Source of the DNA: a virus
Virus record (IMG/VR): IMGVR_UViG_3300042923_001328
Coordinates: 1 to 47,188 of that record
Length of the DNA stretch: 47,188 bases
Reading direction: 5' to 3' (one strand)
Shown: positions 505 through 45,793 of the stretch, piece after piece
How positions within the stretch are numbered: the first letter of the stretch is position 1
How the letters are laid out: each line of letters starts with the position of its first letter
Position numbers and translations under genes: made by a program
The notes under the pieces: model-generated
Databases searched by the model: none
Seen by the model: only the letters and a program-made list of their open reading frames with translations
What the model was told of the DNA's origin: nothing

Positions 505-1788
505 TTAAAGCAATATTTTAGATAAAGCAATTAATATGCCGATTTTTGCATGGTCAAATGTGAGTCCGCCCTGTAGATAGGCTATATAAGGCTCCCTTAT
601 AGGTGCATCAGCTGATAGCTCGATTGAAGCTCCTTGAATAAAGGCGCCAGCAGCCATGATAACCTGATCCTCATAACCCGGCATATCCCAAGGCTCACAT
701 TGTACGAAAGAATCGACAGGTGATCCTGCTTGAATTCCTTTGCAAAAATTAATCATTTTATTTCTATCGTTAAATTTAACTGCCTGAATTATATCTGTTC
801 TCTTCTCATCAAATTTAGGAAGAACCTCAAAGCCTGAAAGTTCCATTATTCTAGCACAGAATATCGCGCCTTTTACGGCTTCAATGGATACATGAGGAGC
901 AAAAAATAGTCCTTGATATAGAAGTCTCATCACTCCGAAAGTTGAACCGCACTCCCCTCCTATTCCAGGTATCGTTAGTCTGTAAGCTGCCTGTTCTACA
1001 TAAGCCTGCCTTCCAGCAACATAACCTCCTGTTGGCGCAATTCCTCCACCTATGTTTTTTATAAGTGAGCCTGCAATTAAATCAGCACCCACATCGGTAG
1101 GCTCAAACTTATCTATAAACTCCCCATAGCAATTATCAACAAAGCATATAACATCAGGCTTTATGCCTTTTATAAAAGAAATTATCTCACCTATTTCAGA
1201 AACTTGAAGTGACTTTCTCCAGCCATAACCTGTTGAGCGTTGAATATGTACGAGCTTTATACTGCTGTCCTGTTCCAAATTAGATTTTATAGCTTTAAAA
1301 TCAATTTTGCCACCTTCAAGCAGATCCACTTGCTTATAGTTTACTCCATACTCTTTAAGTGAACCTATATTAGTATTTTTATTTATTCCTATTATATTAT
1401 GTAAAGTATCATAAGGCGTACCGCAAACTGTAAGCATAGTATTTCCAGGTCTCAAATTTCCAAATAAAGCTGCACCTATAGCATGTGTTCCATTTACAAA
1501 GTGAGGTCTAACTAAGGCGCTCTCACAGTTGAAAACTCTTGCATATACCCTATCCAATGCATCTCTTCCTATGTCGCCGTAGCCATAACCTGAAGAGTTA
1601 GTGAAATGAGCATCACTTATACGTTCCTGCTGAAGTGCATTTAATACCTTAAGCTGGTTATATTCTCTTATTTCATCATAATATTTAAATTCATCTTCAA
1701 TATCTTTTATAGCTTTTTTATACATTTCTAAAACATTATCGTTAATCTTATAAATATTTCTTAACATATTAATAGTAAGATCTAACAT
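505..1788 (-). CDS. methionine gamma-lyase family / aluminium-resistance PLP protein
   Basis: A 427-residue fold-type I PLP enzyme of the family annotated as 'methionine gamma-lyase family' or 'aluminum resistance' protein (YnbB-like). Seen: an N-terminal helical segment, SGYGYGDIGRD near residue 67, and the region FVDNCYGEF then AGSLIKNIGGG, which should carry the PLP-binding Asp and Lys (about residues 218-245). Start ATG has GGGAGG upstream. In clostridia it usually sits beside hfq and lexA as here; its substrate in vivo is not known to me. Family call confident, reaction not. Confidence 0.85.
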   Translation of the reverse strand: MLDLTINMLRNIYKINDNVLEMYKKAIKDIEDEFKYYDEIREYNQLKVLNALQQERISDAHFTNSSGYGYGDIGRDALDRVYARVFNCESALVRPHFVNGTHAIGAALFGNLRPGNTMLTVCGTPYDTLHNIIGINKNTNIGSLKEYGVNYKQVDLLEGGKIDFKAIKSNLEQDSSIKLVHIQRSTGYGWRKSLQVSEIGEIISFIKGIKPDVICFVDNCYGEFIDKFEPTDVGADLIAGSLIKNIGGGIAPTGGYVAGRQAYVEQAAYRLTIPGIGGECGSTFGVMRLLYQGLFFAPHVSIEAVKGAIFCARIMELSGFEVLPKFDEKRTDIIQAVKFNDRNKMINFCKGIQAGSPVDSFVQCEPWDMPGYEDQVIMAAGAFIQGASIELSADAPIREPYIAYLQGGLTFDHAKIGILIALSKILL

Positions 1789-1845
1789 AAACTAAAACCT
1801 CCCCTAGATGCTGCTAATAAAATTACTAAATAATATTAACACATA

Positions 1846-1882
1846 AAAAAAGAATAGGCAAACATCACCTATCTTTTTCATT
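1846..1882 (-). terminator. terminator after hfq
   Basis: On the minus strand GATAGG, a 9-nt loop, then CCTATTC are followed by seven T. It lies directly downstream of the hfq stop. Confidence 0.65.
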
Positions 1883-1886
1883 AGTA

Positions 1887-2135
1887 TTAAATTGTCTCAT
1901 CTTCGCCTGTTTGATTATTAAATAAGATTGGCTTTAATGGAGTGATTGTTGATATTGCATGCTTGTATATAAGCATTTGCTTTCCATCGCAATCAAGGAT
2001 AACAGTAAAGCTGTCAAATCCTTTTACATTGCCTCTTATTTGGAATCCATTAGTCAAATATACGGTAACAGGTATCTTATTTTTTCTAGCTCCATTTAAG
2101 AATATATCCTGTAGATTGTTAGCTGTCTTGTTCAT
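1887..2135 (-). CDS. hfq: RNA chaperone Hfq
   Basis: An 82-residue Sm-like RNA chaperone that forms a hexameric ring and pairs small RNAs with mRNAs. Seen: the Sm1 region with [12 protein letters not shown] and [13 protein letters not shown] (residues 7-35), FDSFTVIL, and the Sm2 signature YKHAISTI (about 58-65), followed by a short polar tail. Length is typical. It follows miaA on the same strand, the common order in Firmicutes. Confidence 0.97.
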
Positions 2136-2205
2136 TATAAATTCCCCTCCAAATAAAATTTGTATAAATAAGTATTCTATGACTTTAATAAAATTCCTCT
2201 AAATT

Positions 2206-3144
2206 TTATAATTTTCTTAATGTATTAAAGCTGTTTATTATAAAATCAGCAACTTCATTATCGTTGTTAAAAAGATCCTTATCGACCCAGTGCACTCTCT
2301 CATCTTTTCTGAACCAGGTAAGTTGTCTTTTTGCATAATTTCTACTGCCCTGCTTTATCATTTCAATAGCTTCTCCAAGAGTTATTCTGCCATCCAAATA
2401 ATAAAGTATCTCCTTATAGCCTATTCCTTTCATTGACTGCATATCTGAATTATAGCCCATTTCCTTAAGTTTAATAACCTCTTCTATAAGACCTTTCTGA
2501 AGCATTTTATCAACTCTAAGATTTATTCTTTCGTAAAGCTTTTCTCTATTCATATTTAGCACGAAATAATAAACTTTATAGGGAATATCATATATGTCGT
2601 CATTCTTGTTAAACTCGCCTATGGTTTGACCTGTAAGCTTATATACTTCTAGAGCCCTAATGACTCTCTTTAAATCATTCGGATAAAGCCTTTTATAAGA
2701 TTCAGGATCTACTTCCTCAAGCAGCGCATGCACGTACTCTTTGCCTTGTTTTTCGGCTTGTTCTGCCAAATATGCTCTATATTCATCATCTTTCTGAGCA
2801 TTTGTAAAACCATAGTTGCAGATTAAAGAATTTATGTATAATCCTGTGCCACCCGCAAGTATAGGCAACTTCTTTCTATGATCTATATCAGATATAGTTG
2901 CCTCAGAAAGTTTTTTAAATTCTGCTGCACTAAACTCCTCACCAGGATCAACAAAATCTATTAAATGATGAGGTACACCTTGCATCTCTTCTTTTGATAT
3001 CTTTGCAGAACCTATATCCATATATTTATAGATTTGCATGGAGTCTGCGGAAATAATTTCACCATTAAGCCGTTTAGCCAGCTCAATTGAAATAGATGTT
3101 TTGCCTACAGCTGTAGGACCTGCTACAATAAGAAGCTCCTTCAT
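2206..3144 (-). CDS. miaA: tRNA dimethylallyltransferase MiaA
   Basis: A 312-residue enzyme adding the dimethylallyl group to A37 of tRNAs that read codons starting with U. Seen: P-loop GPTAVGKTS (residues 9-17), [17 protein letters not shown] with the catalytic Asp region (34-50), [13 protein letters not shown], and the C-terminal [17 protein letters not shown] tRNA-binding segment. MiaB, encoded upstream in this cluster, methylthiolates the same base. Start has a GGGGGG-type ribosome site. Length normal. Confidence 0.97.
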
Positions 3145-3170
3145 GCAATCCCCCCTTCCAAATAAAAATA

Positions 3171-5033
3171 CTACTGAATTCTTTTAAATCTTTTTTCCAG
3201 TTCATTTAAAGTAATTTTGATTATAGTAGGCCTGCCGTGCGGGCACGTAAAAGGCTCTCTGATAAGTCTTAGTCTATCAATAAGAGCTTTCATTTCCATA
3301 ATAGACAGCTTATCGTTTGCTTTAATAGCGGATTTGCACGAAAGGCTTGCAATTTTATTATACTTAACCTCAGAAGCATCACCGCTGCCCATTGCTTTTA
3401 AATTATCAATTATGCTAAGAAATAAAGGTTTAATCTCTATTCTTCCAAGGATTATAGGAACTTCTCTTATACTTATAGTATTCTCTCCAAAAAAATCAAT
3501 ATTAAATCCGGCATTTTTAAATATTTCTTTATTTTCTGTATAAGTAACAAAATCCTCAATATTTAGTTCTATCACAACAGGTGAAGCTAGAATCTGAGCA
3601 ACTATACTCCTATTTCGTACACTGTCAGTATACTGCTCAAATAGAATTTTCTCATGGGCAGCATGCTGATCAATGATGAATAAGTCCTCCCCTGCCTGAG
3701 CCAATATATAGGTATCATTAAACTGTCCAATAACAGAAAGCAGCGGAAACTTTGGAGAATATTCTTGAGCCGATTGAGATATACCTTTACTGTAATATAT
3801 TTCTTCACCTGATCTGATTATGGTTTTATCAGTTTCAGTACTAGCGCCGTAGGAGGCTGCTGCGCTTTCCTCATGCAAATTCCTGACTGCTGTATGATCC
3901 TGCTTGATGGAAAAGCTTAAATTATCTCCGTAAATATTGCTTTTTAAATCTATAGGGATTTGTACTGTAGTTACCTCGCTTTTTTCTTCCTCTTTCTCAA
4001 ACATAGTTATACTAACTGGAGCTACGGTATCGTAAGAATCCTTAAGGCTTCCTCGAATAGCTTCATGCACAGCATCGAATACAAGCTTGAAAATAAATCT
4101 GTCATCTTTAAACTTTATTTCAGACTTAGTAGGATGAACATTTACATCAATAAGATCAGGAAATATATCAAGAAATAGAACAAAAAAGGGATACTTGTTT
4201 ATAGTTAAAAAGGATTTAAAGGCATTTTCTACTGCTGTAGTTATTAATTTGTTTTTTATATACCTTCTGTTTACATATATGCTTTGATTGTTTCTGCTTC
4301 CTCTGCTTATTTCTGAGTTGCCAATAAATCCATGTACAGATGCAATATCAGAGTGTTTTTCGAAAGTTATTATATTTTCATAAATACTTTTACCGTATAC
4401 TGCTCTTATCGTGTCTGATGTTTTTTCGCTTGAGAAGGTTGTAAGAGCCTTGTTGCCATTATTGAATACCTTGAAGGATACTTTTGAGTTTACAAGTGCA
4501 AGCCTTTCAACTATATCTATTATAAGAGCGGCCTCCCTTTGAGGCGACTTCATAAATTTAAGTCTTGCAGGTACGTTGTAGAATAAATCACTTACCTCTA
4601 TGGAGGTTCCTACATTGCATCCACATTCTTTCAGATACTCTATCTGGCCTCCTGCTATGCTTATCTCCTTGCCGTAGTCAAGCTCAGCAGTTCTTGTTTT
4701 AAGATTAACCTTTGAAACAGCAGCTATGCTGGCTAAAGCTTCGCCTCTAAAGCCAAAGGTTCCAATAGAATAAAGATCGTCAATAGCCTTAATTTTACTT
4801 GTAGCATGAGGAAAAAATGCCTTTTCCACATCCTCGGGATGTATCCCCTCACCATCATCGATTATCTTGATAAGCTTTTGGCCTCCCTCACCTATCTCAA
4901 CGGTAACATTTTTTGCATTGGCATCCAAACTATTTTCAATTAATTCCTTTATAACTGAATAAGGTCTTTCAACTACCTCCCCTGCTGCAATCTTGTTGGA
5001 GGTATTAATATCTAAAATATTAATTCTTTTCAA
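3171..5033 (-). CDS. mutL: DNA mismatch repair protein MutL
   Basis: A 620-residue mismatch repair ATPase and endonuclease. Seen: GHKL ATPase motifs ELIENSLDA (about 30-38), IDDGEGI (58) and TFGFRGEAL (92); a variable linker (about 340-430); and a C-terminal domain with [13 protein letters not shown] (about 456), [12 protein letters not shown] and CPHGRPT (about 602). These match MutL proteins of bacteria lacking MutH, which nick DNA themselves. It starts 15 nt after the mutS stop, so it is probably translated from the same message. Confidence 0.97.
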
Positions 5034-5048
5034 TTTATCACCTTCATG

Positions 5049-7703
5049 CTAAATAGATTTGGCTCTATTAATAAGCTCATACAGCTTATTAAACCCCTCC
5101 ATTGGAGTAAGTCTTAAGATATCTATTTTACTTATTTCATCAAGGAATTTCTCTTTGTCTAAATCAGCGAAGCTCAGCTGTTGCATCATGTCGCTTCTAT
5201 CCATAGCTACCTCAGTGTGTATAACCTTGCTTTTTTTCTTTGCTAAAGTTTTATTTTCTGAGGTATTAGAGTCATCCAAAGCGGATAAACTTCCCTTATC
5301 TTCCAAGGTTTTTAATAAATCTTTGGCTCTACTGATAACAGAGCTTGGTAATCCTGCCAGTTTTGCAACCTCTATACCGTAAGACTGGTCAGCACCACCC
5401 CGTACTATTTTTCTTAAAAATACAACTTCGCTGCCAACTTCCTTAACAGCTACAGAATAATTAATAACTCCCTTAATTGAGCCTTCAAGTTTTGTAAGCT
5501 CATGATAGTGAGTAGCAAATAAGGTTTTGCATCTTATGCTATTATTGCTGCAGATATGTTCAATAACGGCCCAGGCTATGCTCAATCCATCATAGGTACT
5601 TGTGCCACGACCTACCTCGTCTAAAAGAACTAGACTTTTTCTTGTGGCGTTGCTTAGAATATTGGATACCTCCCACATTTCAACCATGAAGGTACTCTTT
5701 CCAGCTGCCAGGTCGTCTGATGCGCCAATTCTTGTAAATATTCTATCGCATATTGATATCTCGGCGCTTTTAGCAGGTACGAAGCTTCCTATATGAGCCA
5801 TCAGTGTTATTAATGCAACCTGCCTCATATATGTGGACTTGCCGGCCATGTTTGGACCAGTAATTAATAAAAGAGTTTGATCCTCTGAGTTGATTTCAGT
5901 ATCGTTTGCAACAAAGGTTCCAGCAGGAATCACTTTTTCAACAACTGGATGCCTTCCTTCTTCAATGTGAATCCTGCCGTCCTCTCTTATATATGGTTTT
6001 GTATAATTGTTTTCTAATGCAGTAAGAGATAATGAAAGAAGACAGTCGAGCTGCGCTATTAGCTTTGCAGTATCCATCATTCTAATTGTATGACTTTCTA
6101 CTTGCTCCCGGATAGCTGTAAACAGCTCATACTCTAAACCAATCAGCTTTTCTTCCGCGCCTAATATCTTATCTTCCATTTCCTTTAATTCAGGTGTAAT
6201 ATACCTCTCCGCATTGGCAAGAGTTTGTTTTCTAATATATCTTCCATCAGGAATAAGTTCTTTGTTTGCGTTAGTTATCTCTATATAGTACCCAAATACT
6301 TTATTGTAGCCCACCTTAAGGGATTTTATGCCAGTAACTTCTTTTTCCTTGCTCTCCAAGGCGGCTATCCATTCTTTTCCATGGGACTTGGCCTCCCTCA
6401 ATTCATCTACTTCATTATTATAACCATCCCTTATTATGCCGCCTTCTTTTACTGACAAAGCTGGATTATCAAGTATAGATACATGTAAAAGCTCATATAA
6501 ATCCTGAAGCTCATCTAAGTTTTGATGTATATTTTTTAAAAGCTCCGACCTGCAGCTGGTTAATGTTGCTTTGACAGCTGGAATCTTGCTTAAAGAAGCT
6601 TTTAAAGATACCAGTTCTTTTGCGTTCACGCTCTTTGAAGCAACTTTTCCAACTATTCTTTCTATATCATAGATATTGCATAGCTGTTCCTTTAAATCCT
6701 GTTGCAGTGAAAAATTAACAGCAAACTCCTCTACTGCACCCAATCTCTCTTCTATTTGAGCTTTTTTTATAAGCGGCTGCTCAACCCATTTTCTAAGAAG
6801 CCTGCCACCCATAGCTGTGCTTGTTTTATCAAGCACCCAAAGAAGAGAGCCTTTTTTGCTTTTATCGCGTATGGTTTCTGTTATCTCAAGGTTTCTCCTT
6901 GAATTAATGTCGATATTTAAATATTCATGTATACTATAGTACTCTATCTTGTTTATATTGCAGAGATTTTGTTTTTGGGTCTCATCTATATAGTTTAAAA
7001 GTCCGTTGCCAGCAAAAATTATGCTTTGAGATAAATTACTAAGCTGGCTATGATTAAATTGCCTTTCCAAATTAGTTGATGCATTTTTGCAGAAGAAGTC
7101 TTCGCCTTTTATTGTTGAAATTATACTGAATCTCTCATTAATTAAGGAAAGTAGTTCAGCCTCTAACCCCTCCTGAATAATAATTTCCTTTGGGGAAAAT
7201 TTAGATACCTCATCAATAACAGCAGAAGAAACATACCTTGAATCAGTACAATAAAAATCTCCTGTTGATATATCAGCAAAACATATGCCCATTGAAGTTT
7301 TATCTGCATCTACATGAATGCTCATAACATAGTTATTTTTATTATCTTCCAGGAAACTTGCATCGGTATAGGTTCCCGGTGTAACAATCTTAATAATATC
7401 CCTTCTTACTATACCTTTTGCAGCACTTGGATCTTCCAGCTGCTCGCATATAGCTATCTTATAGCCTTTATGTACAAGTCTGCTTATATATGAATTAGCT
7501 GCATGGAAAGGTATGCCGCACATGGGTGCTCTATTTTCAAGCCCACAGTCTCTCCCTGTAAGCACCAGTTCTAACTCTTTTGAGGCAGTTTCAGCATCAT
7601 CAAAAAACATTTCATAAAAGTCACCTAGTCTAAAAAACAATATGCAATCTTTGCATTTTTCCTTCACCTGTAGATATTGCTGCATCATAGGAGTCAATGC
7701 CAT
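5049..7703 (-). CDS. mutS: DNA mismatch repair protein MutS
   Basis: An 884-residue mismatch sensor. Seen: N-terminal [13 protein letters not shown], the mismatch-wedging FYEMF (residues 29-33), the clamp/lever region, Walker [10 protein letters not shown] (about 617-625), Walker [17 protein letters not shown] (about 690) and a C-terminal dimerisation tail. Ribosome site AAGGAGG lies 9 nt before ATG. A strong terminator hairpin sits immediately upstream, between miaB and mutS, so its expression depends on read-through or on a promoter inside miaB. Confidence 0.97.
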
Positions 7704-7721
7704 AATGTCACCTCCTTAAAT

Positions 7722-7751
7722 TTTAAAAAAAGCTCTTATAAAATAAGAGCC
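7722..7751 (-). terminator. terminator/attenuator between miaB and mutS
   Basis: Perfect 8-bp hairpin GCTCTTAT, 3-nt loop, ATAAGAGC followed on the minus strand by seven T. It ends miaB transcripts or attenuates flow into mutS, whose ribosome site follows at once. Confidence 0.8.
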
Positions 7752-7758
7752 TTTCACT

Positions 7759-9177
7759 TTAAACCTGCTCGCCATTTAGTGAAAATGATAGAGCTTCTGT
7801 AACCTTTACATTAACAAGCTTGCCAATACAGTCAGCGTTCCCAATAAAGTTAACAAGCTTTCCTGTTCTAGTTCTGCCCATTAGTTTGCTGCTGTCATTC
7901 TTGCTGAAGCCTTCAACTAGAACTTCAACAACTTTATCACTGTATTCTTTATTTTTCTTAGCTCCGATTTCATTTACAGCATCAACAAGTCTGTTGAATC
8001 TGTCGTGCTTTATGCTGTCTTCAATCTGCTCTTCCATTTCATCCGCAGGTGTTCCTTTTCTCTTTGAATAAATGAAAGTGAAGGCTGAATCATATTCAAC
8101 TTCCTTAACAAGACTTAATGTATCAAGGAAGTCCTCTTCTGTCTCTCCAGGAAATCCTATTATTATATCAGTAGTAATAGCTGCATTTGGCACAGCCTTC
8201 TTTATCCTTTTTATTAGATCCAAATACTGTTCCCTGTCATATTGTCTATTCATTTTCTTTAGTATTCTGCTTGAGCCAGATTGAACAGGAAGATGAAAGT
8301 GCTCACAAATCTTGTCGCACTCAGCTATTGCTTCTATTACCTCCTGTGACAAATCCTTTGGATGAGAAGTCATAAATCTAATTCTCTCAAGTCCGTCTAT
8401 TTTGTTAATTCTTCTAAGAAGCTTGGCAAAGTTCATCTCATCAGACAGTGTCTTGCCGTAGGAGTTAACGTTTTGCCCAAGAAGTGTAATCTCTTTATAG
8501 CCCTTTGAAACAAGTTCAATTATTTCTTTTTCTATTTCTTCAGGTTCTCTGCTTCTTTCTCTTCCTCTTACATATGGCACTATACAATAAGTGCAGAAGT
8601 TGTTGCATCCATACATAATAGTAACAAATGCTTTAATGTCGCTCTCTCTGTCTACAGGTATTCCTTCTATAATTCCTTCTGCTTTATTCATAATTTCAAT
8701 TATAGATTTATCTTCTTGCTTAACTCTATTTAAATACTCTGGGAACTTATAGGAATTATGAGTTCCGAAAATAATATCAACAAATGGATATTTTTTAATT
8801 ATTGTCTCTGCCATACCCTCCTGCTGCATCATGCAGCCGCAAACAGCAATAATCAAATCTGGATTTTTACGTTTTAGAGCCTTTAATGCTCCTAAATTTC
8901 CATATACCTTAAGCTCTGCATTTTCTCTTACACAACAGGTATTAAAAATAATGATGGAAGCTTCCTCCTTGACTTCAGTTCTTGTATAACCTTGAGATTT
9001 AAGCATTCCGGAAAGCTTCTCGGAGTCCTCCTCATTCATTTGGCATCCCCAAGTTTCCAAATAAAAGAGTTTTCCCCTTCCAGTATTTTCGTGGTCTTTA
9101 TTGGCTTTATAGTCTATTGTTCTTATATTTTTCGTATTTATATGCACTTTTGGTGTATTTTCTGTATTATTATTCAT
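7759..9177 (-). CDS. miaB: tRNA methylthiotransferase MiaB, phage-host chimera
   Basis: Radical-SAM enzyme adding a methylthio group to i6A37 of tRNA. Seen: N-terminal cluster cysteines C45 ([11 protein letters not shown]), C81 (NTCCVRE) and C115 (VCGCMMQ); radical-SAM CxxxCxxC at C191, C195, C198 ([10 protein letters not shown]); C-terminal TRAM domain (about 405-470). The 472 residues exceed the more usual ~450. The prophage junction (9044-9051) falls in the codons of TWGC, so I infer that residues 1-44, the ATG and the AGGAGGT ribosome site are phage-derived and the rest is host. The abandoned native start is at 46014. The reading frame and all six cysteines are intact. Confidence 0.95.
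9044..9069. other. left prophage attachment junction (hybrid attB/attP)
   Basis: Contains the shared core CATCCCCA (9044-9051; TGGGGATG on the minus strand) and, on the phage side, the arm AAATAAAAGAG (9059-9069). That arm is the exact reverse complement of CTCTTTTATTT at 45944-45954 at the other end. Host miaB sequence lies to the left of the core. Confidence 0.85.
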
Positions 9178-9430: not shown

Positions 9431-10135
9431 ATGGATGCGAAAAAAATGGAAAATCAAATGAAACAAGACCTTCAAGATGTTTTTACTAAGATACTTGACA
9501 GTTTTCATTATATTTTAGATATAAGTGCTAAGTCAAGAAGCGGTGCTGAAATTAGTGATTATCTTGAGGATGCTTTTGTTGAATACTTTGAAAAACATGA
9601 GCATGAAAGAATATCTGACGCTGAATCTGCACCAAAGGGACAAACTAAAAACCCATATGATATTAAATTCAATTACACCTATACTGACACTGATACTGGT
9701 GAAGAGTTTGACGATGTAATTTGGGGTGATATAAAAGCAACTAAGGCTTCATATGATGACAGTAATCCAGACTTAGGAACTCCAACTAAAATGATTAAAT
9801 TTATGTTGGACGGGCATTTTTACATGGTCTTTGTATTCTTTGAATATGAAGCAACAGACGATAACAAAACAAGGTTTATTCCATATGATGACGGTAACTA
9901 CGCAAGAATAATGTTCTTAAAAGACATACACCATTCTGTCAGAATAAACCCCAAGCCACAATTTCAAGTAAACATACATACAGAAGATGAATATAGAACC
10001 AAGATGGAGTTTATTGACTTATTTGAACAAAAATACAAAGAATCAATAGACAGAATTATTAAAAAACAAAATAAGAAAAAAGATGAATTAGAGGCTTTAT
10101 TTGATAAAGTAAGAAAGGTTCAGAAGGACAAGTAA
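9431..10135 (+). CDS. probable type II restriction endonuclease (PD-(D/E)XK type)
   Basis: A 234-residue protein convergent with an adenine methyltransferase. Seen: an N-terminal helical region with RSGAEISDYLED (36-47), then NPYDIKF (D77) and WGDIKATK (D100, K102), the spacing and residues expected of a PD-(D/E)XK nuclease core; a basic helical C-terminus rich in KKQNKKK. Ribosome site AAAGGGGAG precedes the ATG. Its partner and motif make a restriction enzyme the best reading; I do not recognise the cut site. It is the only clear plus-strand gene of the prophage, which suggests separate acquisition. Confidence 0.7.
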   Translation: MDAKKMENQMKQDLQDVFTKILDSFHYILDISAKSRSGAEISDYLEDAFVEYFEKHEHERISDAESAPKGQTKNPYDIKFNYTYTDTDTGEEFDDVIWGDIKATKASYDDSNPDLGTPTKMIKFMLDGHFYMVFVFFEYEATDDNKTRFIPYDDGNYARIMFLKDIHHSVRINPKPQFQVNIHTEDEYRTKMEFIDLFEQKYKESIDRIIKKQNKKKDELEALFDKVRKVQKDK

Positions 10136-10138
10136 AAA

Positions 10139-10165
10139 GCGATGGATTATTCCATCGCCTTTTTA
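10139..10165. terminator. bidirectional terminator between restriction genes
   Basis: Perfect hairpin GCGATGGA, TTAT, TCCATCGC with T-rich DNA downstream on + and on -. It ends the two convergent genes and overlaps the last codons of the methyltransferase. Confidence 0.8.
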
Positions 10166-12219
10166 ATCTCTTCTTCCAAGAAAACAACTTCAGCACTTGT
10201 TATTTCATAAGAATCGTAAATAAGTTGGTTTAACTCGTTGCTTATATTTTGATAAACTTCTGAGTTAATATCTTGATAAGAAACTTTATCAACTAAATCC
10301 ACTACCCTATCAAAATTTCTATCGTCTATAAATAATCTGACCTCATGTAAATCGCTAATTTTTATTTGTGGAGTTTTGCCATTACCCATTCTTATAATAC
10401 GCTTCTTTTGTGCATAGAAAGTTAAAAGGTTTGAATTAAGCAATGCACATACATATTTTAAAAATCTCTTGTTTTTATCTGAATAGTCTTTATTGGTAAG
10501 AACATATAGGCTATTATTAGCAGCATATTTATCTTCTGTATAGGTTGCTATTAATTCCTTTGCACTTTGTCTAATAAAAATCTTTGGTGCTAAATAGCAT
10601 TCCTTATCGCCTATGGTTACTCTCTTCTTATTTTTTACTCCTAATAAAGTTAGTTCCTCTTTAAATTCATCGGATATCTTAATTTGTAAATCGTAGTCAT
10701 ATTTCAGATATCTGCTACAACTTAAAGGTGCAAATTTATAACTAAAACCTTTTGAACCTTCAAGATAAGGGAAAATAAAATCTTCTGTATCATTTCTATA
10801 ATCTTCTTCTGTAGCCATAAAGTCTTCTGTTCTACCGGTTAAAGCACAACAAGTTCTTAATTGCTTCGCAGGAAAGTAGTGATATAAGATAGGATGTTTT
10901 TCTATCTTAGAAATAATATTAACCTCATGACCAAATAATGGTTTGTAAAATTTATACTCATTATTTGGATCGTACCAATTGGCTTGTCTAATCTCTAAAA
11001 CTTCCTCATTATATCCTTCTATCCATTTAACAATATTGGTATCCCTTAATTCTTTATTGCTTTCTTTCTTAAGTAATATAACCTGCTGACCACTTGCTAC
11101 CCCGTCAAATTCCTTTAAATTTACTGTCATGCTTTCAACGATACAAGTATCTAAAATATATTTTCTTAAATCTCTAAAAGCAGTTTCAAAGAAAGACATA
11201 TCAACTATAAAGCAAATCCTTTGTCCGTCATTAGTCATTCTTATTGCTCTTTCTATAAAGAACATTATAAGGTTGAATTTATTGTTGCCGTTCTTTATCT
11301 GAACAAAATCATAATTAGTATTATAGTAGGTTCTCTTTTCCTCTGTCATATTTCTGCTTCTTCTTCCATACATAGTTACATATGGAGGATTGCTTAATAC
11401 TAAATCAAAGCCGTTTTTAAACTTTCCATTTTTACTTTTAATATCATTTAATTCTGTACTTTCTTCAAACAAATCATTCTTTTCAATAGTAAATGGAACA
11501 ATAGCATTAGGAACAATGGTGAAATCCCCAACAAAAATATTTATCTTATCCATTTGATAATTGTTGTCTTGTATGTAAGCCTGTATTGCTAAATCCATTA
11601 CTTCTATTAACATATTAAGTTCAGTTAAATAACAAGCGAAAGGATCTAAATCTGTTGCATAATAATTATCAGTGATATGTTGCAAGATTTGCTTTGGAGA
11701 ATAGCCATTACTTTGCATGTATTCTTTTAATCTCATAGCAGCATTTATAAGGAATAAACCTGAACCAACTGCAGGGTCAATTATTCTTTTATCAATCATA
11801 ATCTCACCTGAATATTGGGAAGTATTGAGCATATATTCTATTACTGCACTTGACCTTGTATAGAATTGTCCTATATCTTTCCTTTTATCTATACTCAAGC
11901 AGTCTTCATAGAGTTTTCCAATAGCATCCCTTGCCAATTCTCCATTCAAGTTGCTATATATTTCAGTTTTTAAATCCTCTATTATAGGATACATTGTAGA
12001 CAGCCTGTTTTCAAAAATATAAGGATATACTTGCTTTAAAACATTCTTGCCATTTGTATATAAGCCATGCTTACTAACATTATCTTTATATGTCTTTTGC
12101 AGTATTATTTCACTTAAATGTACGAAAACAACTTCATTTAATATATCTTTATCTTCAAAAGAATAACTTTTTAATAACTCTGTTCTTACCTTGTCTGCCA
12201 ACAGTGAATAATTTACCAT
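10147..12219 (-). CDS. N6-adenine DNA methyltransferase (Eco57I/TaqI-like)
   Basis: A 690-residue modification enzyme, presumably protecting the DNA cut by the adjacent endonuclease. Seen: GQFYT (about 117-121, motif X), AdoMet-binding motif I DPAVGSGLFL (148-157), the acidic motif ATDLDPFA, catalytic motif IV NPPY (276-279), and a long C-terminal part (about 400-690) of the size and position of a target-recognition domain. Start chosen at the ATG with GGAGGTG 6 nt upstream, not the GTG three codons earlier. With the endonuclease it forms a two-gene type II system carried as phage cargo. Confidence 0.85.
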   Translation of the reverse strand: MVNYSLLADKVRTELLKSYSFEDKDILNEVVFVHLSEIILQKTYKDNVSKHGLYTNGKNVLKQVYPYIFENRLSTMYPIIEDLKTEIYSNLNGELARDAIGKLYEDCLSIDKRKDIGQFYTRSSAVIEYMLNTSQYSGEIMIDKRIIDPAVGSGLFLINAAMRLKEYMQSNGYSPKQILQHITDNYYATDLDPFACYLTELNMLIEVMDLAIQAYIQDNNYQMDKINIFVGDFTIVPNAIVPFTIEKNDLFEESTELNDIKSKNGKFKNGFDLVLSNPPYVTMYGRRSRNMTEEKRTYYNTNYDFVQIKNGNNKFNLIMFFIERAIRMTNDGQRICFIVDMSFFETAFRDLRKYILDTCIVESMTVNLKEFDGVASGQQVILLKKESNKELRDTNIVKWIEGYNEEVLEIRQANWYDPNNEYKFYKPLFGHEVNIISKIEKHPILYHYFPAKQLRTCCALTGRTEDFMATEEDYRNDTEDFIFPYLEGSKGFSYKFAPLSCSRYLKYDYDLQIKISDEFKEELTLLGVKNKKRVTIGDKECYLAPKIFIRQSAKELIATYTEDKYAANNSLYVLTNKDYSDKNKRFLKYVCALLNSNLLTFYAQKKRIIRMGNGKTPQIKISDLHEVRLFIDDRNFDRVVDLVDKVSYQDINSEVYQNISNELNQLIYDSYEITSAEVVFLEEEIKKAME

Positions 12220-12245
12220 AAAGTACACCTCCGAAATATAATTGT

Positions 12246-33294: not shown

Positions 33295-33593
33295 TAATAA
33301 CACTCTCCTTTCAGAATACTTTCTAATTTCTTTAATCCCTTGAGTTTTAAATCTCCCACAGTTCTTGGGCTTATTCCTAATCTCCTGCCTACTTCCTCAT
33401 GAGTATCAAACCCATATACATAATAATAAAGCAGCACTCTCTTTTGCTTATAAGATAACTGATTTAAGGCATTCTCTATATCTACTTTTTCTATTACAGT
33501 TTCAGGTGTAGAGAATGTATGGGAGTTACTATAAAACTCTGTAAGGTTTTCAAGTATCGCAATTATTAAACCCTGTGTATAGTTCTCTAACAT
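33294..33593 (-). CDS. sigma factor region 4-like protein (late activator half B)
   Basis: A 99-residue protein whose C-terminal half is a sigma-70 region 4 helix-turn-helix: LNQLSYKQKRVLLYYYVYGF, then HEEVGRRLGISPRTVGDLKLK. No region 2 is present; that lies in the preceding gene. The two overlap by 7 nt (ATGTTAG), with AAGGGTGA as ribosome site. Position just upstream of terminase is where many Firmicute phages keep their late activator. Confidence 0.75.
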   Translation of the reverse strand: MLENYTQGLIIAILENLTEFYSNSHTFSTPETVIEKVDIENALNQLSYKQKRVLLYYYVYGFDTHEEVGRRLGISPRTVGDLKLKGLKKLESILKGECY

Positions 33594-33865
33594 ACCATAT
33601 CACCCTTTAAGATCTCTTTATTGCTATAGCCTCTCATGGTGTTAATGGCAGCACGCTTTACAATGGTATAGAAACTAACTATTTCCCCGTCCTTAACAAG
33701 CAGGTTTTTACTAACAATTTTACTGTGTAAATTTATATAAAGGTCTTGCAAAATGTCTTCTTCGTTATAAGTAATATTAGTATCATAAAGAACTTTATTT
33801 AAAAAATCTTTTTTACTTAATAAATATCCCCATGCTTCTTCGTCTGTAAATCTCTTATATATCAC
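33587..33865 (-). CDS. sigma factor region 2-like protein (late activator half A)
   Basis: A 92-residue protein resembling sigma-70 region 2: YNEEDILQDLYINLHSK (core binding helix) and FYTIVKRAAINTMRGYSN (about 66-83, the -10-binding helix). It ends ILKGDMVC without region 4. GTG start with AGGGGGG 5-7 nt upstream. Split sigma factors are known, e.g. SigO/RsoA of Bacillus subtilis, where the two proteins work together. Confidence 0.7.
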   Translation of the reverse strand: MIYKRFTDEEAWGYLLSKKDFLNKVLYDTNITYNEEDILQDLYINLHSKIVSKNLLVKDGEIVSFYTIVKRAAINTMRGYSNKEILKGDMVC

Positions 33866-33886
33866 ACTAATCCCCCCTTACATACA

Positions 33887-33940
33887 AAAAATAAAAAAGA
33901 GCAGAATACTACAGTAGCCTAATACTGTAATAAACTGCTC
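33887..33940 (-). terminator. terminator after the tRNA-like RNA
   Basis: On the minus strand GAGCAG...TACAGTA, loop, TACTGTA...CTGCTC, about 18 paired bases, then TTTTTTATTTTTT. It ends the transcript holding the tRNA-like RNA and separates it from the sigma-like genes. Confidence 0.85.
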
Positions 33941-33964
33941 TCATAGGCTGTCTTAAAATAATAT

Positions 33965-34107
33965 AAAAGTAGGCGAAAATCGAGGTGAATATTTTTAAGT
34001 GTCTTATCCGTTAGACCATTTCCACCTTATAAGGTGGAAAGTTGGAGTCGAACCAACATTACTGGATTAGAAGTCCGGTGTAATTCACCTCTGCACATCC
34101 TACACTT
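33965..34107 (-). tRNA. candidate circularly permuted tRNA-Arg(UCU)
   Basis: In transcription order: outer stem; anticodon arm (34078-34062, loop CTTCTAA); T-arm GTTGG TTCGACT CCAAC (34057-34041); 3' acceptor TTTCCACC (34040-34033); TTATAA; 5' acceptor GGTGGAAA (34026-34019); TG; D-arm GTCT AACGGATA AGAC (34016-34001); closing stem. Rejoined as 34025-34000 plus 34078-34033 it makes a 72-nt tRNA with a perfect acceptor and D-stem, U8, A14, G18G19, A21 and the arginine identity base A20 with anticodon UCU. Flanks pair: GAGGTGAAT (34091-34083) with ATTCACCTC (33990-33982), GTAGG with CCTAC. Flaws: a C-A mismatch in the anticodon stem, C73. Alternative: an ordinary tRNA-Arg at 34105-34033 with a poor acceptor stem (one mismatch, two G-U) and A8. 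Confidence 0.65.
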
Positions 34108-34109
34108 AT

Positions 34110-34143
34110 ATATTATATTAAACAAAACTTATAAACATCCTAC
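34110..34143 (-). promoter_or_regulatory. repeated promoter-like element, copy f
   Basis: Minus strand GTAGG, 11 nt, TTTTGTTTAAT, then ATAATATATAA. A start about 7 nt past TTTAAT would fall at the outer stem of the tRNA-like RNA. Confidence 0.6.
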
Positions 34144-34200
34144 AAAAAAATCAGATTATTTTAAAATATTTACTGTATTGTCAGGGGAGGCAATACAATA

Positions 34201-34503
34201 TTAAAATGAAATTGCGATACTTCTTCTTATGTAATCTTTTCTGCCTGTAACTTCTTTTAAGCAGTCCTTTGCAGAAAGACTTGGGTTATCAAATACCATT
34301 CTAAAGAACTCAATAGCGGCCTCTCTAAACTCTCTTTTAAACTTTACGACCTTTAATATTTGCTCGTCTATATCTTCCTCTGATATATGTTTTAAATACC
34401 CCTTATCAATTAAACGGGACATTAATATGGCTTCTGTATATTTACCTTCCCATTCATTAATAAACAGTTCTAAAGCGATTTTCTTATCAGTTAAACAATG
34501 CAT
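34201..34503 (-). CDS. hypothetical protein, 100 aa
   Basis: Not recognised. Start ATG at 34503 chosen because AGGAGGTGTTG lies immediately upstream; the longer frame would translate that ribosome site. The protein is helical and charged: MHCLTDKKIALELFINEWEG, EEDIDEQILKVVKFKREFRE, then SLSAKDCLKEVTGRKDYIRR. The last part has the feel of a small DNA- or RNA-binding region. Promoter-like copy e lies just upstream. Confidence 0.65.
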   Translation of the reverse strand: MHCLTDKKIALELFINEWEGKYTEAILMSRLIDKGYLKHISEEDIDEQILKVVKFKREFREAAIEFFRMVFDNPSLSAKDCLKEVTGRKDYIRRSIAISF

Positions 34504-34527
34504 ACAACAACACCTCCTATAAAATCT

Positions 34528-34565
34528 TGTACATATCATTTGAACAAAACTTTGCTGATACCTTT
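34528..34565 (-). promoter_or_regulatory. repeated promoter-like element, copy e
   Basis: Minus strand AAAGG, 11 nt, TTTTGTTCAAA, then TGATATGTACAA; about 25 nt before the 34503 start. Confidence 0.55.
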
Positions 34566-34593
34566 AAGTAATTTATGGCAATTACATTGGATA

Positions 34594-34682
34594 AAAAAAG
34601 AAAGCACTCTATCGTCTTGGCTTCGATAAAATACTTTCTTTTTAAAATAGTGTTGTGTATGTTTAACAAATGGGTTTCACAC
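34594..34682 (-). ncRNA. short terminator-ended RNA d
   Basis: About 85 nt run from promoter-like copy d to a 15-bp hairpin (34638-34624 with 34614-34600, including three G-U pairs) followed by TTTTTTT. No ribosome site with an ORF lies between, so this looks like a small RNA. Its 5' part also has AGTGT/ACACT complementarity. Confidence 0.5.
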
Positions 34683-34715
34683 TTATCTATTGGACAAAAG
34701 TCCTTCAATCCCTGC
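34678..34715 (-). promoter_or_regulatory. repeated promoter-like element, copy d
   Basis: Minus strand GCAGG, 11 nt, TTTTGTCCAAT, then AGATAAGTGTG. Confidence 0.55.
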
Positions 34716-34723
34716 TTTTTTAT

Positions 34724-34945
34724 TTAGTTTTTTAACAAAAATATTCTTTTAATTTTCCATAGATTACTTTGTATTATAACTAAAGAAGTTAAAACAGTTG
34801 AAAGAGTAATTAAAGCAATTCCTGAATATTTTATTATGTTAGTTACTATATAATTAAAAGCAAATATTTCTGCTGCAACTATTATTCCAGTAGCCATTAT
34901 TATAATTTCCAATAAAGCAATTAAAGCACGACTTGTTTTATCCAT
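34724..34945 (-). CDS. small membrane protein, 73 aa
   Basis: Start at ATG 34945 with GGAGGTG 7 nt upstream. Two hydrophobic helices, about residues 8-30 (LIALLEIIIMATGIIVAAEI) and 38-60 (YSGIALITLSTVLTSLVII), and a basic end (WKIKRIFLLKN). Function unknown. Preceded by a CGAGTTATAAT promoter-like site. Confidence 0.65.
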   Translation of the reverse strand: MDKTSRALIALLEIIIMATGIIVAAEIFAFNYIVTNIIKYSGIALITLSTVLTSLVIIQSNLWKIKRIFLLKN

Positions 34946-34976
34946 TAAATACACCTCCGTAAATTTATTATAGACA

Positions 34977-34988
34977 AATTATAACTCG
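34977..34988 (-). promoter_or_regulatory. CGAGTTATAATT promoter-like site
   Basis: Minus strand CGAGTTATAATT, containing a perfect TATAAT, 32 nt before the 34945 start. The same box stands at 39266 (32 nt before its gene) and, as CGAGTTAAAATT, at 45820 (27 nt before the integrase). Confidence 0.5.
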
Positions 34989-35044
34989 TTTATCAGAATT
35001 ATGCAGGTCCATCCTTACATAATTTAAAAATATTTTTCGATATA

Positions 35045-35778: not shown

Positions 35779-36170
35779 TCGTCCCTCTCCTTACTGAAAT
35801 AATCAACCCAGCCTTTATCATAAACAACCCATAGAAGAGGCAAATCAGGATATCTTAATAAAAACATTTTTCTTTTTATCTTCGCTACATCAGTAGCATC
35901 GCCTTTTACATCTATGATCTCTATAGAACCATCGTTATGTACTACTTTAAAATCTGCTATATATGTAATAGACCTTATCGTTTTACCGTCCTTGGTTTTA
36001 AACTTATCTTGTAGAGTGAAAGACGGCTGCAACTCAAAATCTTTTATTTCCCCTTTTGCTTTTCTATCTTTTAAGTAAAGATAGTATTTACTCTCTACCT
36101 TACTATCAAATTTAAACCCGTCTATATAAGTCTTCTTTGCATTATATTTGCTTTTCTTCCTCTTATACAT
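35775..36170 (-). CDS. DUF1064-like phage nuclease-type protein
   Basis: A 131-residue protein: MYKRKKSKYNAKKTYIDGFKF, then FDSKVESKYYLYL, ELQPSFTL and a core ADFKV...IEIIDVKGDA, the pattern of DUF1064 proteins with a PD-(D/E)XK-like site (D in ADFKV, D and K in DVKG). These are phage-encoded and proposed to act in recombination or DNA processing. ATG at 36170 chosen for AGGTGA spacing. Overlaps the methyltransferase end by 8 nt. Confidence 0.75.
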   Translation of the reverse strand: MYKRKKSKYNAKKTYIDGFKFDSKVESKYYLYLKDRKAKGEIKDFELQPSFTLQDKFKTKDGKTIRSITYIADFKVVHNDGSIEIIDVKGDATDVAKIKRKMFLLRYPDLPLLWVVYDKGWVDYFSKERDE

Positions 36171-37116
36171 TGGCATCACCTGCCAATAGTTCTTTTAATA
36201 TATTCTCAACCACTATTACAACTATACTATTGCCGGCCATTTTATAAAGTTTTGTATCTGTAAATCCATTTTCCCTAAGCAATATATAATCGCTATCGTC
36301 ATAGTCCATGAGCCTGAAACATTCTAAAGGAGTTAATTTTCTTACGGTTCCGTTTTTTATAACTCTCTTTTTACCACATGAATCGCCTGTCGTAAGAGTT
36401 CCAAATGTTTTATTTTTAAATACTCTAAAGGTGGTTTCAAAGGATCTATCGGCTAAAATTAATTCTTGAGAATTATATAAATCTCCGAGGAGTTCAATTT
36501 CTTTATCTTTATAATATCTTTGCTCTACATTCTCTTTTAAGATATCTTCTATCTTGATATCTTTAAAAACGGTTGATTTGAAGTTAAATTCTCGGTCTAT
36601 ATCTTTTCTTATACTTACTATAAAAACTCTTTCCCTGTGCTGCGGGATACCAAAATTTTTACTATCTAAGACTTTAAAATAGTTATTATATCCTGCAGTA
36701 TCTAAATCGTTCAATATTCTTATAAAATCGTCTTTAAACTTTTTATGCGTAACAAGGGCTTTTACATTTTCTATGATGGAATATTTAGGCTTCTTACTTT
36801 TCAATATCCTTAAACCTTCGTAGTACAATCCACTTCTTGTTTCCCCTTCAACTATCCCTCTTTGTTTGCCAGCAATGGATATATCCTGACAGGGAAAACC
36901 CCATGTCATTAAATCAAAATCCTCTAACTGTGCAGCATTTACTTTTGTAATATCACCTAAATTTAATTCTTCAGATACATTATGTAAAAGTGAATATGCT
37001 TTACTTACCTGTTTATCAATCTCACAATAGTTAATTAATTTATAATCTATTCCTTGCCTCTCTAAAGCCTTTTCAAATGAGCCAAGGCCAGAGAATATAC
37101 TTAACATTCTAATCAC
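36163..37116 (-). CDS. C5-cytosine DNA methyltransferase
   Basis: A 317-residue methylase. Seen: motif I MLSIFSGLGSFEKALE (about 4-19), motif IV with catalytic Cys in WGFPCQDISIAG (about 87-98), motif VI ENVKALV (about 128), motif VIII QHRERVF, and motif X near the end (YKMAGNSIVV). A single short target domain lies between. GTG start at 37116 has GGGGGAG upstream. No partner endonuclease is adjacent, so it likely guards phage DNA from host enzymes or marks it. A diverged copy of the leader hairpin element precedes it. Confidence 0.9.
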   Translation of the reverse strand: MIRMLSIFSGLGSFEKALERQGIDYKLINYCEIDKQVSKAYSLLHNVSEELNLGDITKVNAAQLEDFDLMTWGFPCQDISIAGKQRGIVEGETRSGLYYEGLRILKSKKPKYSIIENVKALVTHKKFKDDFIRILNDLDTAGYNNYFKVLDSKNFGIPQHRERVFIVSIRKDIDREFNFKSTVFKDIKIEDILKENVEQRYYKDKEIELLGDLYNSQELILADRSFETTFRVFKNKTFGTLTTGDSCGKKRVIKNGTVRKLTPLECFRLMDYDDSDYILLRENGFTDTKLYKMAGNSIVVIVVENILKELLAGDANV

Positions 37117-37165
37117 TACAAACTCCCCCTTCCGTTGCGTAAACAACAAAAGAAGCGGGGCTGTT
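37117..37165 (-). promoter_or_regulatory. hairpin leader element, diverged copy 4
   Basis: On the minus strand GTTGT, TTAC, GCAAC then GGAAGGGGGAG before the methyltransferase start; upstream AACAGC box. Weaker match to the copies at 38235, 41609 and 41842. Confidence 0.4.
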
Positions 37166-43286: not shown

Positions 43287-43616
43287 TTACGATTTTGTTT
43301 TGCGATAACCTGATTCAAGTGCAGTTCTTGCATAAAGCAATGATTCAACATCTTCTTTTCTAAAGTCTTCAACAAGTTCTAAATACATGTTGAACTCGCT
43401 GTTGTAAAATCTTTCAGGGTTAATTCCATTCTCGATACAATATTTCTTTACTTCTTTTATTGTAAGCCAGTCAATAAGTTTAATCCTGTTTTTGTAACTT
43501 AACTTTGTATCTGTAATGATATCACAGGCCAAATATGTTATATCGCCAATAAATTCAAGCAGAGTCCAATCATCGTAAAACGGCAAAGGCATTCGTGGAA
43601 TAGGTCTAATTACCAT
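43287..43616 (-). CDS. hypothetical protein coupled to integrase, 109 aa
   Basis: Not recognised. ATG at 43616 overlaps the integrase stop by 7 nt. Contains PIPRMPLPFYDDWTLLEFIG, a helical middle and RFYNSEFNMYLELVEDFRK; basic end (SGYRKTKS). Its position directly after a large serine recombinase makes an accessory role in integration or excision possible, but no known directionality factor is recognised. Confidence 0.6.
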   Translation of the reverse strand: MVIRPIPRMPLPFYDDWTLLEFIGDITYLACDIITDTKLSYKNRIKLIDWLTIKEVKKYCIENGINPERFYNSEFNMYLELVEDFRKEDVESLLYARTALESGYRKTKS

Positions 43617-45793
43617 TCAATCCCCCCAAGCATACTAAAATTAATAAACTTACTTAATAACCCTTTTTGTTCTACAGAAATATTCTCAACGGGTGCTTCC
43701 CTATCATTATATTCAGTCCTTACCCATAAACCTTTTTTAGTTAAATATTTAATAAATTTATCTATAATAGATATTGTGTTTTTATCTTGCTGCTCTATCT
43801 TATCTATAAGGTTTTTAATAAAGTCCATGTTAGGCTTTATAAATTCGTCATTTTGTTGTACTTGTTTGTCTAACGCATATTGCTCAAAACTAAAGTCTAT
43901 ATGGCTTCTAATCCTCGCAGGTTCTATATTGTAACTATATCTTGTAAGAACTCTACTAAACATAGTATCAATAAATTCTTCTTTTTCCCAAATCAAGCCT
44001 TTATATGAAGCAAATGAATTTATTGACTCATTTATTTCTTCATCACTATAGCCTAAAGACTTTCCTATCTGAACAAGATTATTGTCAAAATTGTATTCAA
44101 CTTCGTCAAGTTGGTATTTCTTAAATCCGGGTCTTGATATAACTGCTTTTTTAAGAATTGATTCTAAAAGGTCTTTTTGTTTATCTTGATCTAAACTAAA
44201 GAAATATTTCCTTAAATTATCTTGAGAACGCATATTTAGATTTTTTAGTTCAGTATAGTCTTCAAATGTTTTCAGTATTTTTCTTATTTTTTCTTCCCTT
44301 CTTAAAATAAGATTGTTTATATTGCTTTGTATTATTTCTTGCTCTTCCCTTAACTCTTTAAGTTTGCTTGTAAATACCTCAGACAAATCTCCATCGGATT
44401 TTATAATTAAGTCTGTTGTCTTGTTGACCTCTTTTTTCTTACTTTCTAAATCCTTGGATAATCTATTGATATTGTTTTCTATATCTAAAATTTCTTTATT
44501 ATTCTCAGGTTTACTTTTTAATTCTAACTTTGGAAGAAACCCTACATATATAGTTAATCCATTAAAGAACTTATCAAATATTAAATCTTTAATGTTATCT
44601 TCCTTTAAAGAAGAGGCTGATTTACATAGCCGTCCAGAGGAATAGTTATAACATTTATAATAGACCTCCTTTATGGTTTCCCCATTGTGAAGGTGCCTCG
44701 AAGAAAGTCCCCCTGTCATTTGGCTGCCGCATTCAGGACAGGTAAGAATAGAAGAAAATATATGACTATTCTTAATTCCACGCCTAAATCTCTTCATGCC
44801 CTCATTATCAACTACAAAGTTATCGTTCTTGCTTCTTCTATCTTTTAGTATTAATTGGACCTTCTCAAAGTCTTCTAAAGACACGATGGCTTCGTGTTCT
44901 CCTTTTACCATGTTGACAGTAGGCTCTGCCTTAAACTCTTGTACTACCTTTCCATTTTCAAATTTAACCCTTGTCTTTCCCCAACTAACATGGCCACACA
45001 TTAAAGGATTCTTCAAAATATCACCTACAGTTTTACTTGTCCATGTGCCTCCCTTTTTTGTCTTGTATCCATGCTCGTTAAGATACTTTGTGATTCTATA
45101 TGTGCCTTCACCTGATAAATATTGTTCGTATATAAGTTTTACAACAGGTGCTTCTTCTTTGTTTATGTAGAGTTTTCTTCTTGATTTTCTATTTCCCTCA
45201 GAATCAACTTCATATTGATCATCACCTATTGCCTTTAAATCAAAGCCGTATGGCACCGTTCCACCTTGCCATTTACCACATATGTTTCCGTCTTCGTCTA
45301 TACCTCCTCTTTTAGCACTTTCTTCCATACCAGCCGGGACACGCACTTTTAAATTTTCTACGTATAGTTGGTTCAACAAACTTAAGATGGTGGTTAATAT
45401 AAGTCTGTTTGCAGAGTTTAAATCATTTCCATCGGTAGGAAACAAACCGTCCTTAATTGCAACAATTTGATATTTACCTTCTTTTTCTAACTCTAATAAT
45501 GTCTGTGTATCTTTAATAGAACGGGAAAGTCTATCAAGGGCATAAACAAATACAGCATCGATTACTTTATTACTTTTATCTTGTGTTCTTACTGTTTCTA
45601 TAATCTCTTGTATGCCATCACGGTATAAACTCTTTCCACTTATGCCCTCATCTTTTATTACTTTGGTTACTTCAAAGTTATGCATTTTAGCAAAGAAACG
45701 GCATTGCTCTTCTTGAAAGCCAAGGCTATATCCCTCTTCTGCTTGTCTTAATGTACTTACACGACAATATATCCAACATTTCTTTTTAGCCAT
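43610..45793 (-). CDS. large serine recombinase (phage integrase)
   Basis: A 727-residue site-specific recombinase. Seen: catalytic domain (about 1-150) with nucleophile Ser13 in CRVST and arginines of ALDRLSRS (about 86-93); recombinase domain (about 190-300, GTVPYGFDL, GGTWTSKTV); zinc-ribbon domain with CPECG (about 355) and CYNY...LC (about 385); coiled coil (about 420-490, LSKDLESKKKEVNK); and a long C-terminal extension not usual in ~500-residue members. It inserts attP into attB without long homology. The start lies about 175 bp from the core at 45968. Its ribosome site is inside an inverted repeat. Confidence 0.95.
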   Translation of the reverse strand: MAKKKCWIYCRVSTLRQAEEGYSLGFQEEQCRFFAKMHNFEVTKVIKDEGISGKSLYRDGIQEIIETVRTQDKSNKVIDAVFVYALDRLSRSIKDTQTLLELEKEGKYQIVAIKDGLFPTDGNDLNSANRLILTTILSLLNQLYVENLKVRVPAGMEESAKRGGIDEDGNICGKWQGGTVPYGFDLKAIGDDQYEVDSEGNRKSRRKLYINKEEAPVVKLIYEQYLSGEGTYRITKYLNEHGYKTKKGGTWTSKTVGDILKNPLMCGHVSWGKTRVKFENGKVVQEFKAEPTVNMVKGEHEAIVSLEDFEKVQLILKDRRSKNDNFVVDNEGMKRFRRGIKNSHIFSSILTCPECGSQMTGGLSSRHLHNGETIKEVYYKCYNYSSGRLCKSASSLKEDNIKDLIFDKFFNGLTIYVGFLPKLELKSKPENNKEILDIENNINRLSKDLESKKKEVNKTTDLIIKSDGDLSEVFTSKLKELREEQEIIQSNINNLILRREEKIRKILKTFEDYTELKNLNMRSQDNLRKYFFSLDQDKQKDLLESILKKAVISRPGFKKYQLDEVEYNFDNNLVQIGKSLGYSDEEINESINSFASYKGLIWEKEEFIDTMFSRVLTRYSYNIEPARIRSHIDFSFEQYALDKQVQQNDEFIKPNMDFIKNLIDKIEQQDKNTISIIDKFIKYLTKKGLWVRTEYNDREAPVENISVEQKGLLSKFINFSMLGGIEW

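Follow-up and report, generated by a model that had tools for sequence, protein, structure and literature searches.

Does a bacteriophage encode a tRNA whose two halves stand in reverse order? The question is raised by a short minus-strand locus in a virus record of 47,188 bases, the whole of which was analysed and is called the window here. An initial annotation had described the locus as a circularly permuted tRNA-Arg(UCU) gene. Reviews list permuted tRNA genes from algae and one archaeon and none from bacteria (PMC3978253, PMC4033280), and our text searches of the literature found none in phages. Host genes (methionine gamma-lyase-like, miaA, mutL, mutS and miaB) fill positions 505-9177 of the window and positions 43610-45793 encode a large serine integrase, which marks the record as a prophage from a low-GC, Clostridia-like host; the best MiaB match in the 299 genomes compared is 58-59%. 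At the host/prophage border after miaB, a SwaI-like restriction endonuclease (+) adjoins an Eco57I-type methyltransferase (-) at 9431-12228, and a C5 cytosine DNA methylase is located in the early region of the prophage (36163-37149). The RNA lies between small ORFs at 33587-33865 and 34201-34539, upstream of both the sigma-like and the terminase genes. Promoter-like matches in 33500-35000 are at the level of chance (9 found, 8.2 expected), and the promoter-like copy proposed for this RNA is thus not borne out. As to the strong terminator, a hairpin followed by T6 can be seen by eye, but a consensus scan found none.

It is evident that the permuted order of the tRNA halves is real. On the minus strand the 3′ half precedes the 5′ half, with TTATAA between them, as had been described. 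We compared two covariance models made from the same 26 real tRNAs, which were cut at 26/27 with the halves swapped in R1 and left unswapped in R2. The permuted model R1 scores 57.0 bits (34078-34000), whereas the conventional model R2 scores 35.1 bits (34105-34033). Since the 3′ half alone reaches 28.7 bits with R2, the conventional 5′ half adds 6.4 bits, compared with the 28.3 bits that are added by the permuted 5′ half. It follows that real tRNA sequence makes up the permuted 5′ half. The scan allowing permutation, a check proposed in the initial annotation, therefore supports a permuted tRNA geometry in a phage, and the outcome named there as contrary, a better conventional pairing, did not occur. 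No close homologue of the RNA was found by blastn in phages or by Arg(UCU)-specific permuted patterns in viral and genome contigs, these searches giving only true tandem tRNA arrays or nothing. Likewise, no copy was found in the TerL relatives, which are at most 40% identical.

The features of the RNA are collected in Table 1. Read along the minus strand, P0, loop B, P1 and loop A lead into the anticodon arm (GGA-CTTCTAA-TCCAG), TAAT, the T arm and the acceptor 3′ strand (TTTCCAC C); after TTATAA follow the acceptor 5′ strand (G GTGGAAA), TG, the D arm, A and CT, and then the second strands of loop A, P1, loop B and P0. The 3′ half thus comprises the anticodon arm (UCU at 34071-34069), the V loop, the T arm, the acceptor 3′ strand and C73, and the 5′ half comprises the acceptor 5′ strand, the D arm and C27-U28.

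Table 1. Features of the prophage RNA and its surroundings (window coordinates)
Feature	Position	Strand	Evidence
P0 outer helix, 5′ strand GTAGG	34099-34103	-	Pairs with 33969-33973; in MFE fold
Loop B, 5′ side ATGTGCA	34092-34098	-	Place and similar sequence as in class members
P1 helix, 5′ strand GAGGTGAAT	34083-34091	-	9/9 pairs with 33982-33990
Loop A, 5′ side TACACC	34077-34082	-	Class consensus TACTTC
tRNA-like 3′ half, positions 29-73	34033-34076	-	R1 57.0 bits; cross-half junction 28/29
TTATAA closing the acceptor hairpin	34027-34032	-	Hairpin in fold has 9 pairs and a 4-nt loop
tRNA-like 5′ half, G-1 to U28	33998-34026	-	Contributes 28.3 bits beyond the 3′ half
Loop A, 3′ side TAAAAAT	33991-33997	-	R3 alignment
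P1 helix, 3′ strand ATTCACCTC	33982-33990	-	Fold, shuffle test, R3 alignment
Loop B, 3′ side GATTTTCG	33974-33981	-	CGAUUUU agrees with class consensus
P0 outer helix, 3′ strand CCTAC	33969-33973	-	MFE fold
Probable terminator, long hairpin GAGCAG..CTGCTC then T6	about 33893-33941	-	By eye from sequence

The acceptor (UUUCCAC/GUGGAAA) forms 7/7 pairs and C73:G-1, which accounts for the eight acceptor pairs claimed, and the D-stem (GUCU/AGAC, 4/4) and the T-arm (GUUGG/CCAAC, 5/5) are also fully paired. U8, A14, G18G19 and the anticodon were found where they had been placed, and A20, U33, A37 and A38 are likewise present; CCA is not encoded. The halves do rejoin to 72 nt (plus G-1), but the join proposed earlier leaves a C28.A42 mismatch in the anticodon stem. 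This mismatch is removed when positions 27-28 are supplied by the 5′ half: C27-U28 (33999-33998), together with G29-G30-A31 from the 3′ half, give the perfect anticodon stem CUGGA/UCCAG. The D arm is identical to that of a phage tRNA-Arg(UCG) in record L021, and the 18-nt stretch TGGTCTAACGGATAAGAC of the 5′ half recurs in a phage tRNA-Arg(UCG). The claim that the outer ends pair also holds for both helices, with a further A/U-rich extension of the P0 5′ strand to about 34111. The outer-strand duplex has an energy of -24.8 kcal/mol, compared with -11.1 +/- 2.6 kcal/mol after shuffling (1/5000 as good), and folding of the whole RNA gives z = -4.5 (0/200 shuffles as good).

The prophage RNA, apparently unique as a "permuted phage tRNA", belongs to a large class. 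We searched IMG/VR contigs for a T arm with a D arm behind it and kept loci whose acceptor strands are complementary in 6 or more of 7 positions; this yielded about two dozen elements outside conventional tRNA calls, which have in common an outer helix and either a TTACTTC or a TACAGCAA motif. Scans with these motifs brought the total to at least 231 distinct phage elements with the permuted layout. The sample is biased by the common D-arm sequence that the patterns required, and the 231 listed elements include a few chance pairings inside tRNA arrays. The layout of the class is a P0 helix, an internal loop, a P1 helix, a loop and a permuted cloverleaf. On the 5′ side, loop B reads cattgca in L372 and TGCGCAG in other members. 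In the TerL relatives, R1 found one further candidate (L018:2718-2799, +), a permuted tRNA-like element that is flanked in its phage contig by the terminase and portal genes; it overlaps the 3′ end of a small ORF and has no clear anticodon arm and no TROVE.

Two further features of the elements played no part in their selection. The 3′ half contains an anticodon arm, defined by U33 and three inner pairs, in 120 of the 231 listed elements, compared with 9.2 expected by shuffling, and the 5′ half makes the 27:43 and 28:42 pairs in 102 of these 120, compared with 29.6 when the 5′ halves are exchanged. In an alignment of 30 sequences, for which P1 and the acceptor were partly selected but 27-28:42-43 was not, the 28:42 pair is kept with both sides changed in 12 sequences, and the covariation score of the whole structure was reached by 0/500 shuffles. 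The -1:73 pair, unexpected in an ordinary tRNA-Arg, occurs in 157 of the 231 listed elements as well as in the prophage RNA. RtcB was rejected as a general partner of the class, being encoded in 4/41 of its records; it is also absent from the window.

In 2014 Chen is reported to have described Y RNAs close to Ro60 in over 250 bacteria and phages. The group with the TACUUC loop is linked to this protein. Using two loci as blastn queries, we identified unannotated copies in Xanthomonas phage Olaya and its relatives, Microbacterium phage FuzzBuster and Bacillus phage G. The RNA is directly upstream of a TROVE/Ro-like ORF in Olaya and FuzzBuster; the adjoining FuzzBuster gene carries the annotation "Ro-like RNA binding protein". 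In phage G, the gene for a "putative TROVE domain ribonucleoprotein" follows the RNA at a distance of about 2 kb. Olaya has three consecutive unannotated Y-type RNAs directly upstream of its TROVE ORF (L440:2013-2614, +). The Rfam YrlA family RF02553 matches the RNAs of these three phages at 33-50 bits, below its gathering score. TROVE is encoded in 31/32 records of this group, the three phages included, and in 0/12 others; a homologue of one TROVE protein of about 530 aa lies within 2.5 kb of 81 of the 98 TACUUC-loop element loci. In bacteria, a model of 30 phage Y-type RNAs that left out the prophage RNA (R3) found eight Y-type matches of 75-102 bits in Bacillota genomes (398 bacterial genomes sampled). 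These eight RNAs (L443-L450) carry anticodon-like arms. Two of the 59 bacterial genomes tested encode TROVE (G230 and G339); both are among those with strong R3 matches, and both have a Y-type RNA within 0.9 kb of TROVE. YrlA has been described as having a long 5′/3′ stem with D, T and acceptor arms and as binding Rsr and PNPase (PMC8394870), and it has been proposed to be a decoy against an anticodon nuclease (PMC7790460). TROVE proteins with a tRNA-like partner have been noted in jumbo phages (PMC7824862).

The TACAGCAA-type RNAs differ in their neighbours. TROVE was found in 0/42 of their records, and the recurrent neighbour is a DUF2828/DUF7788 protein (e.g., L176:4644-6095, +). PF11443 is present in 23/34 TACAGCAA-type records, compared with 0/11 Ro60-group records and 0/14 control genomes. 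In an AlphaFold model of one DUF2828 protein (pLDDT 79.8), the five best PDB matches are all Ro60/TROVE structures (E 2e-7 to 1e-5), with TM values of 0.32-0.57 that make the predicted likeness a match at the level of the fold; the DUF2828 sequence profile reaches TROVE proteins weakly. It is possible that DUF2828 is a second Ro60-like family with its own Y-like RNAs. No paper treating DUF2828 together with such RNAs was found in the literature.

Where does the prophage RNA stand in relation to these groups? R3 matches it along the full length (126 positions, 64.4 bits); in this match P1 is fully paired and the CGAUUUU of loop B agrees. The score alone is no proof of membership, since tandem tRNA pairs score as high as 62 bits, although P1 is broken in them. 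By its loop B, the prophage RNA comes nearest to the Ro60-linked group in the R3 alignment. Among the features of YrlA, it has the permuted D, T and acceptor arms and the paired 5′/3′ basal stem. On the other hand, RF02553 gives no match at E up to 10, the 47-kb record, which is possibly incomplete, encodes neither TROVE (PF05731) nor DUF2828, and loop A is UACACC instead of UACUUC, although loop A of FuzzBuster also departs from UACUUC (UUAUCAC) next to Ro60. We therefore name the RNA Y-RNA-like instead of filing it as YrlA. The prophage RNA is probably an orphan Y-RNA-like tRNA mimic, and YrlA membership proper is not claimed. What counts against a mimic is the complete, tRNA-like anticodon arm, which is more than a non-decoding mimic would seem to need.

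An alternative is a true permuted tRNA-Arg(UCU) gene, of one or two pieces, that reads AGA codons. RNase P and RNase Z would remove the TTATAA loop, CCA would be added and the pieces would be ligated or held together. Every arm is intact, including the perfect anticodon stem from both halves, U33, A37, A38 and A20 are present, and both host and phage use AGA as their main codon for Arg. There is also a precedent in the unligated two-piece permuted tmRNA of bacteria and phages (PMC3978253, PMC9004378). Nevertheless, the acceptor runs through G-1:C73 into a closed hairpin, so that no unpaired site for RNase P or CCA is left. C73 is unusual for a tRNA-Arg, the CCA is not encoded, no bulge-helix-bulge is present, and RtcB is absent from the record and from most class members tested. 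AGA is used less in phage genes (24 per 1000) than in host genes (31 per 1000), so that no need for decoding is visible, and the class tracks Ro60 and not translation. A tRNA-Arg gene needing a permuted precursor, as originally proposed, is thus not the best supported reading. The outer helices correspond to the basal stem of the class and not to the bulge-helix-bulge at which permuted pre-tRNAs are spliced, and we consider such a gene unlikely. It is slightly less likely still that cleavage at the acceptor loop and addition of CCA turn the RNA into a working tRNA-Arg(UCU) in one or two pieces, with phage Y-like RNAs generally being permuted tRNAs and not pure mimics, even though many of these RNAs retain both a proper anticodon loop and an anticodon stem formed across the halves. 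If true, no permuted tRNA from a virus or bacterium would precede it.

The same 3′-half/5′-half order is left by tandem duplication, and the locus could be what is left, without function, of a tandem pair of tRNA-Arg genes after loss of the outer halves; conventional tandem arrays score up to 64 bits with R1. This explanation is improbable, because the outer strands pair far above chance, all inner arms are intact and the layout is that of a conserved class with covarying pairs. An ordinary tRNA-Arg at 34105-34033 is what ARAGORN reports and what Rfam calls weakly (RF00005, 30.3 bits, its only call at the locus), but the alignment has six broken pairs and the 5′ half adds far less than the permuted one, which makes this reading hardly tenable and the two calls a warning about weak conventional tRNA calls of this kind. 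Finally, the orphan Y-like RNA may have as partner a different, unrecognised ring protein of phage or host, just as DUF2828 proteins appear to bind the TACAGCAA-type RNAs. This is a sub-version of the explanation that we favour, with which its probability overlaps, and we regard it as less likely than not. It would agree with the lack of TROVE here and in the TACAGCAA-type records, and with the frequent presence there of DUF2828 with its predicted Ro60 fold, whereas DUF2828 is absent here too and loop B resembles the Ro60-linked group.

As an orphan Y-RNA-like tRNA mimic, the prophage RNA would be a phage-encoded non-coding RNA of about 130-150 nt. Its paired ends would form a basal stem in two parts, with loop B between P0 and P1, emerging from a complete cloverleaf. 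The permuted order of the cloverleaf would follow from an acceptor arm that is closed as a hairpin and an open end that falls in the anticodon stem. The RNA most likely stays in one piece. A Ro60-like ring protein could bind the basal stem and would come from the host or another phage, since the record encodes none that is recognised. The tRNA-like module may dock on a tRNA-recognising partner, such as PNPase, a tRNA-modifying enzyme or an anticodon nuclease, and serve as a tether or decoy. Three points appear to be new: the complete anticodon arm with cross-half covariation (not mentioned in the D/T/acceptor description of YrlA consulted; PMC8394870), the orphan state in a prophage, and the DUF2828-linked class of tRNA-like RNAs. 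The Y RNA class of tRNA look-alikes is widespread, usually accompanied by Ro60 and barely annotated, and tRNA finders miss its members or misreport them as weak conventional tRNAs. Why a mimic should have an anticodon loop is directly testable in the cultured phages FuzzBuster, Olaya and G.

Among known systems, the permuted tRNA genes of algae and Thermofilum pendens are similar in that the 3′ half stands before the 5′ half, the outer ends pair and the rejoined cloverleaf is intact. The bulge-helix-bulge is a 4-bp helix between 3-nt bulges (PMC3978253). The prophage RNA has instead 6- and 7-nt loops around the 2-bp 27-28:42-43 helix, and its acceptor hairpin extends beyond position 73. The splicing endonuclease is not known from bacteria. 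With two-piece tmRNA, bacteria and phages already offer an example of a permuted tRNA-like RNA, but the prophage RNA has no tag reading frame and does have a D stem and an anticodon arm; neither ARAGORN nor Rfam called a tmRNA at the locus. YrlA, the bacterial Y RNA (RF02553), shares with it the permuted D, T and acceptor arms closed by the acceptor hairpin and a two-part stem, interrupted by internal loops, in which the 5′ and 3′ ends pair, and phage relatives of the prophage RNA adjoin TROVE genes and match RF02553. Apart from RF02553, TROVE and loop A, the prophage RNA differs from YrlA in its complete 7-nt anticodon loop, carried on a 5-bp stem to which both halves contribute.
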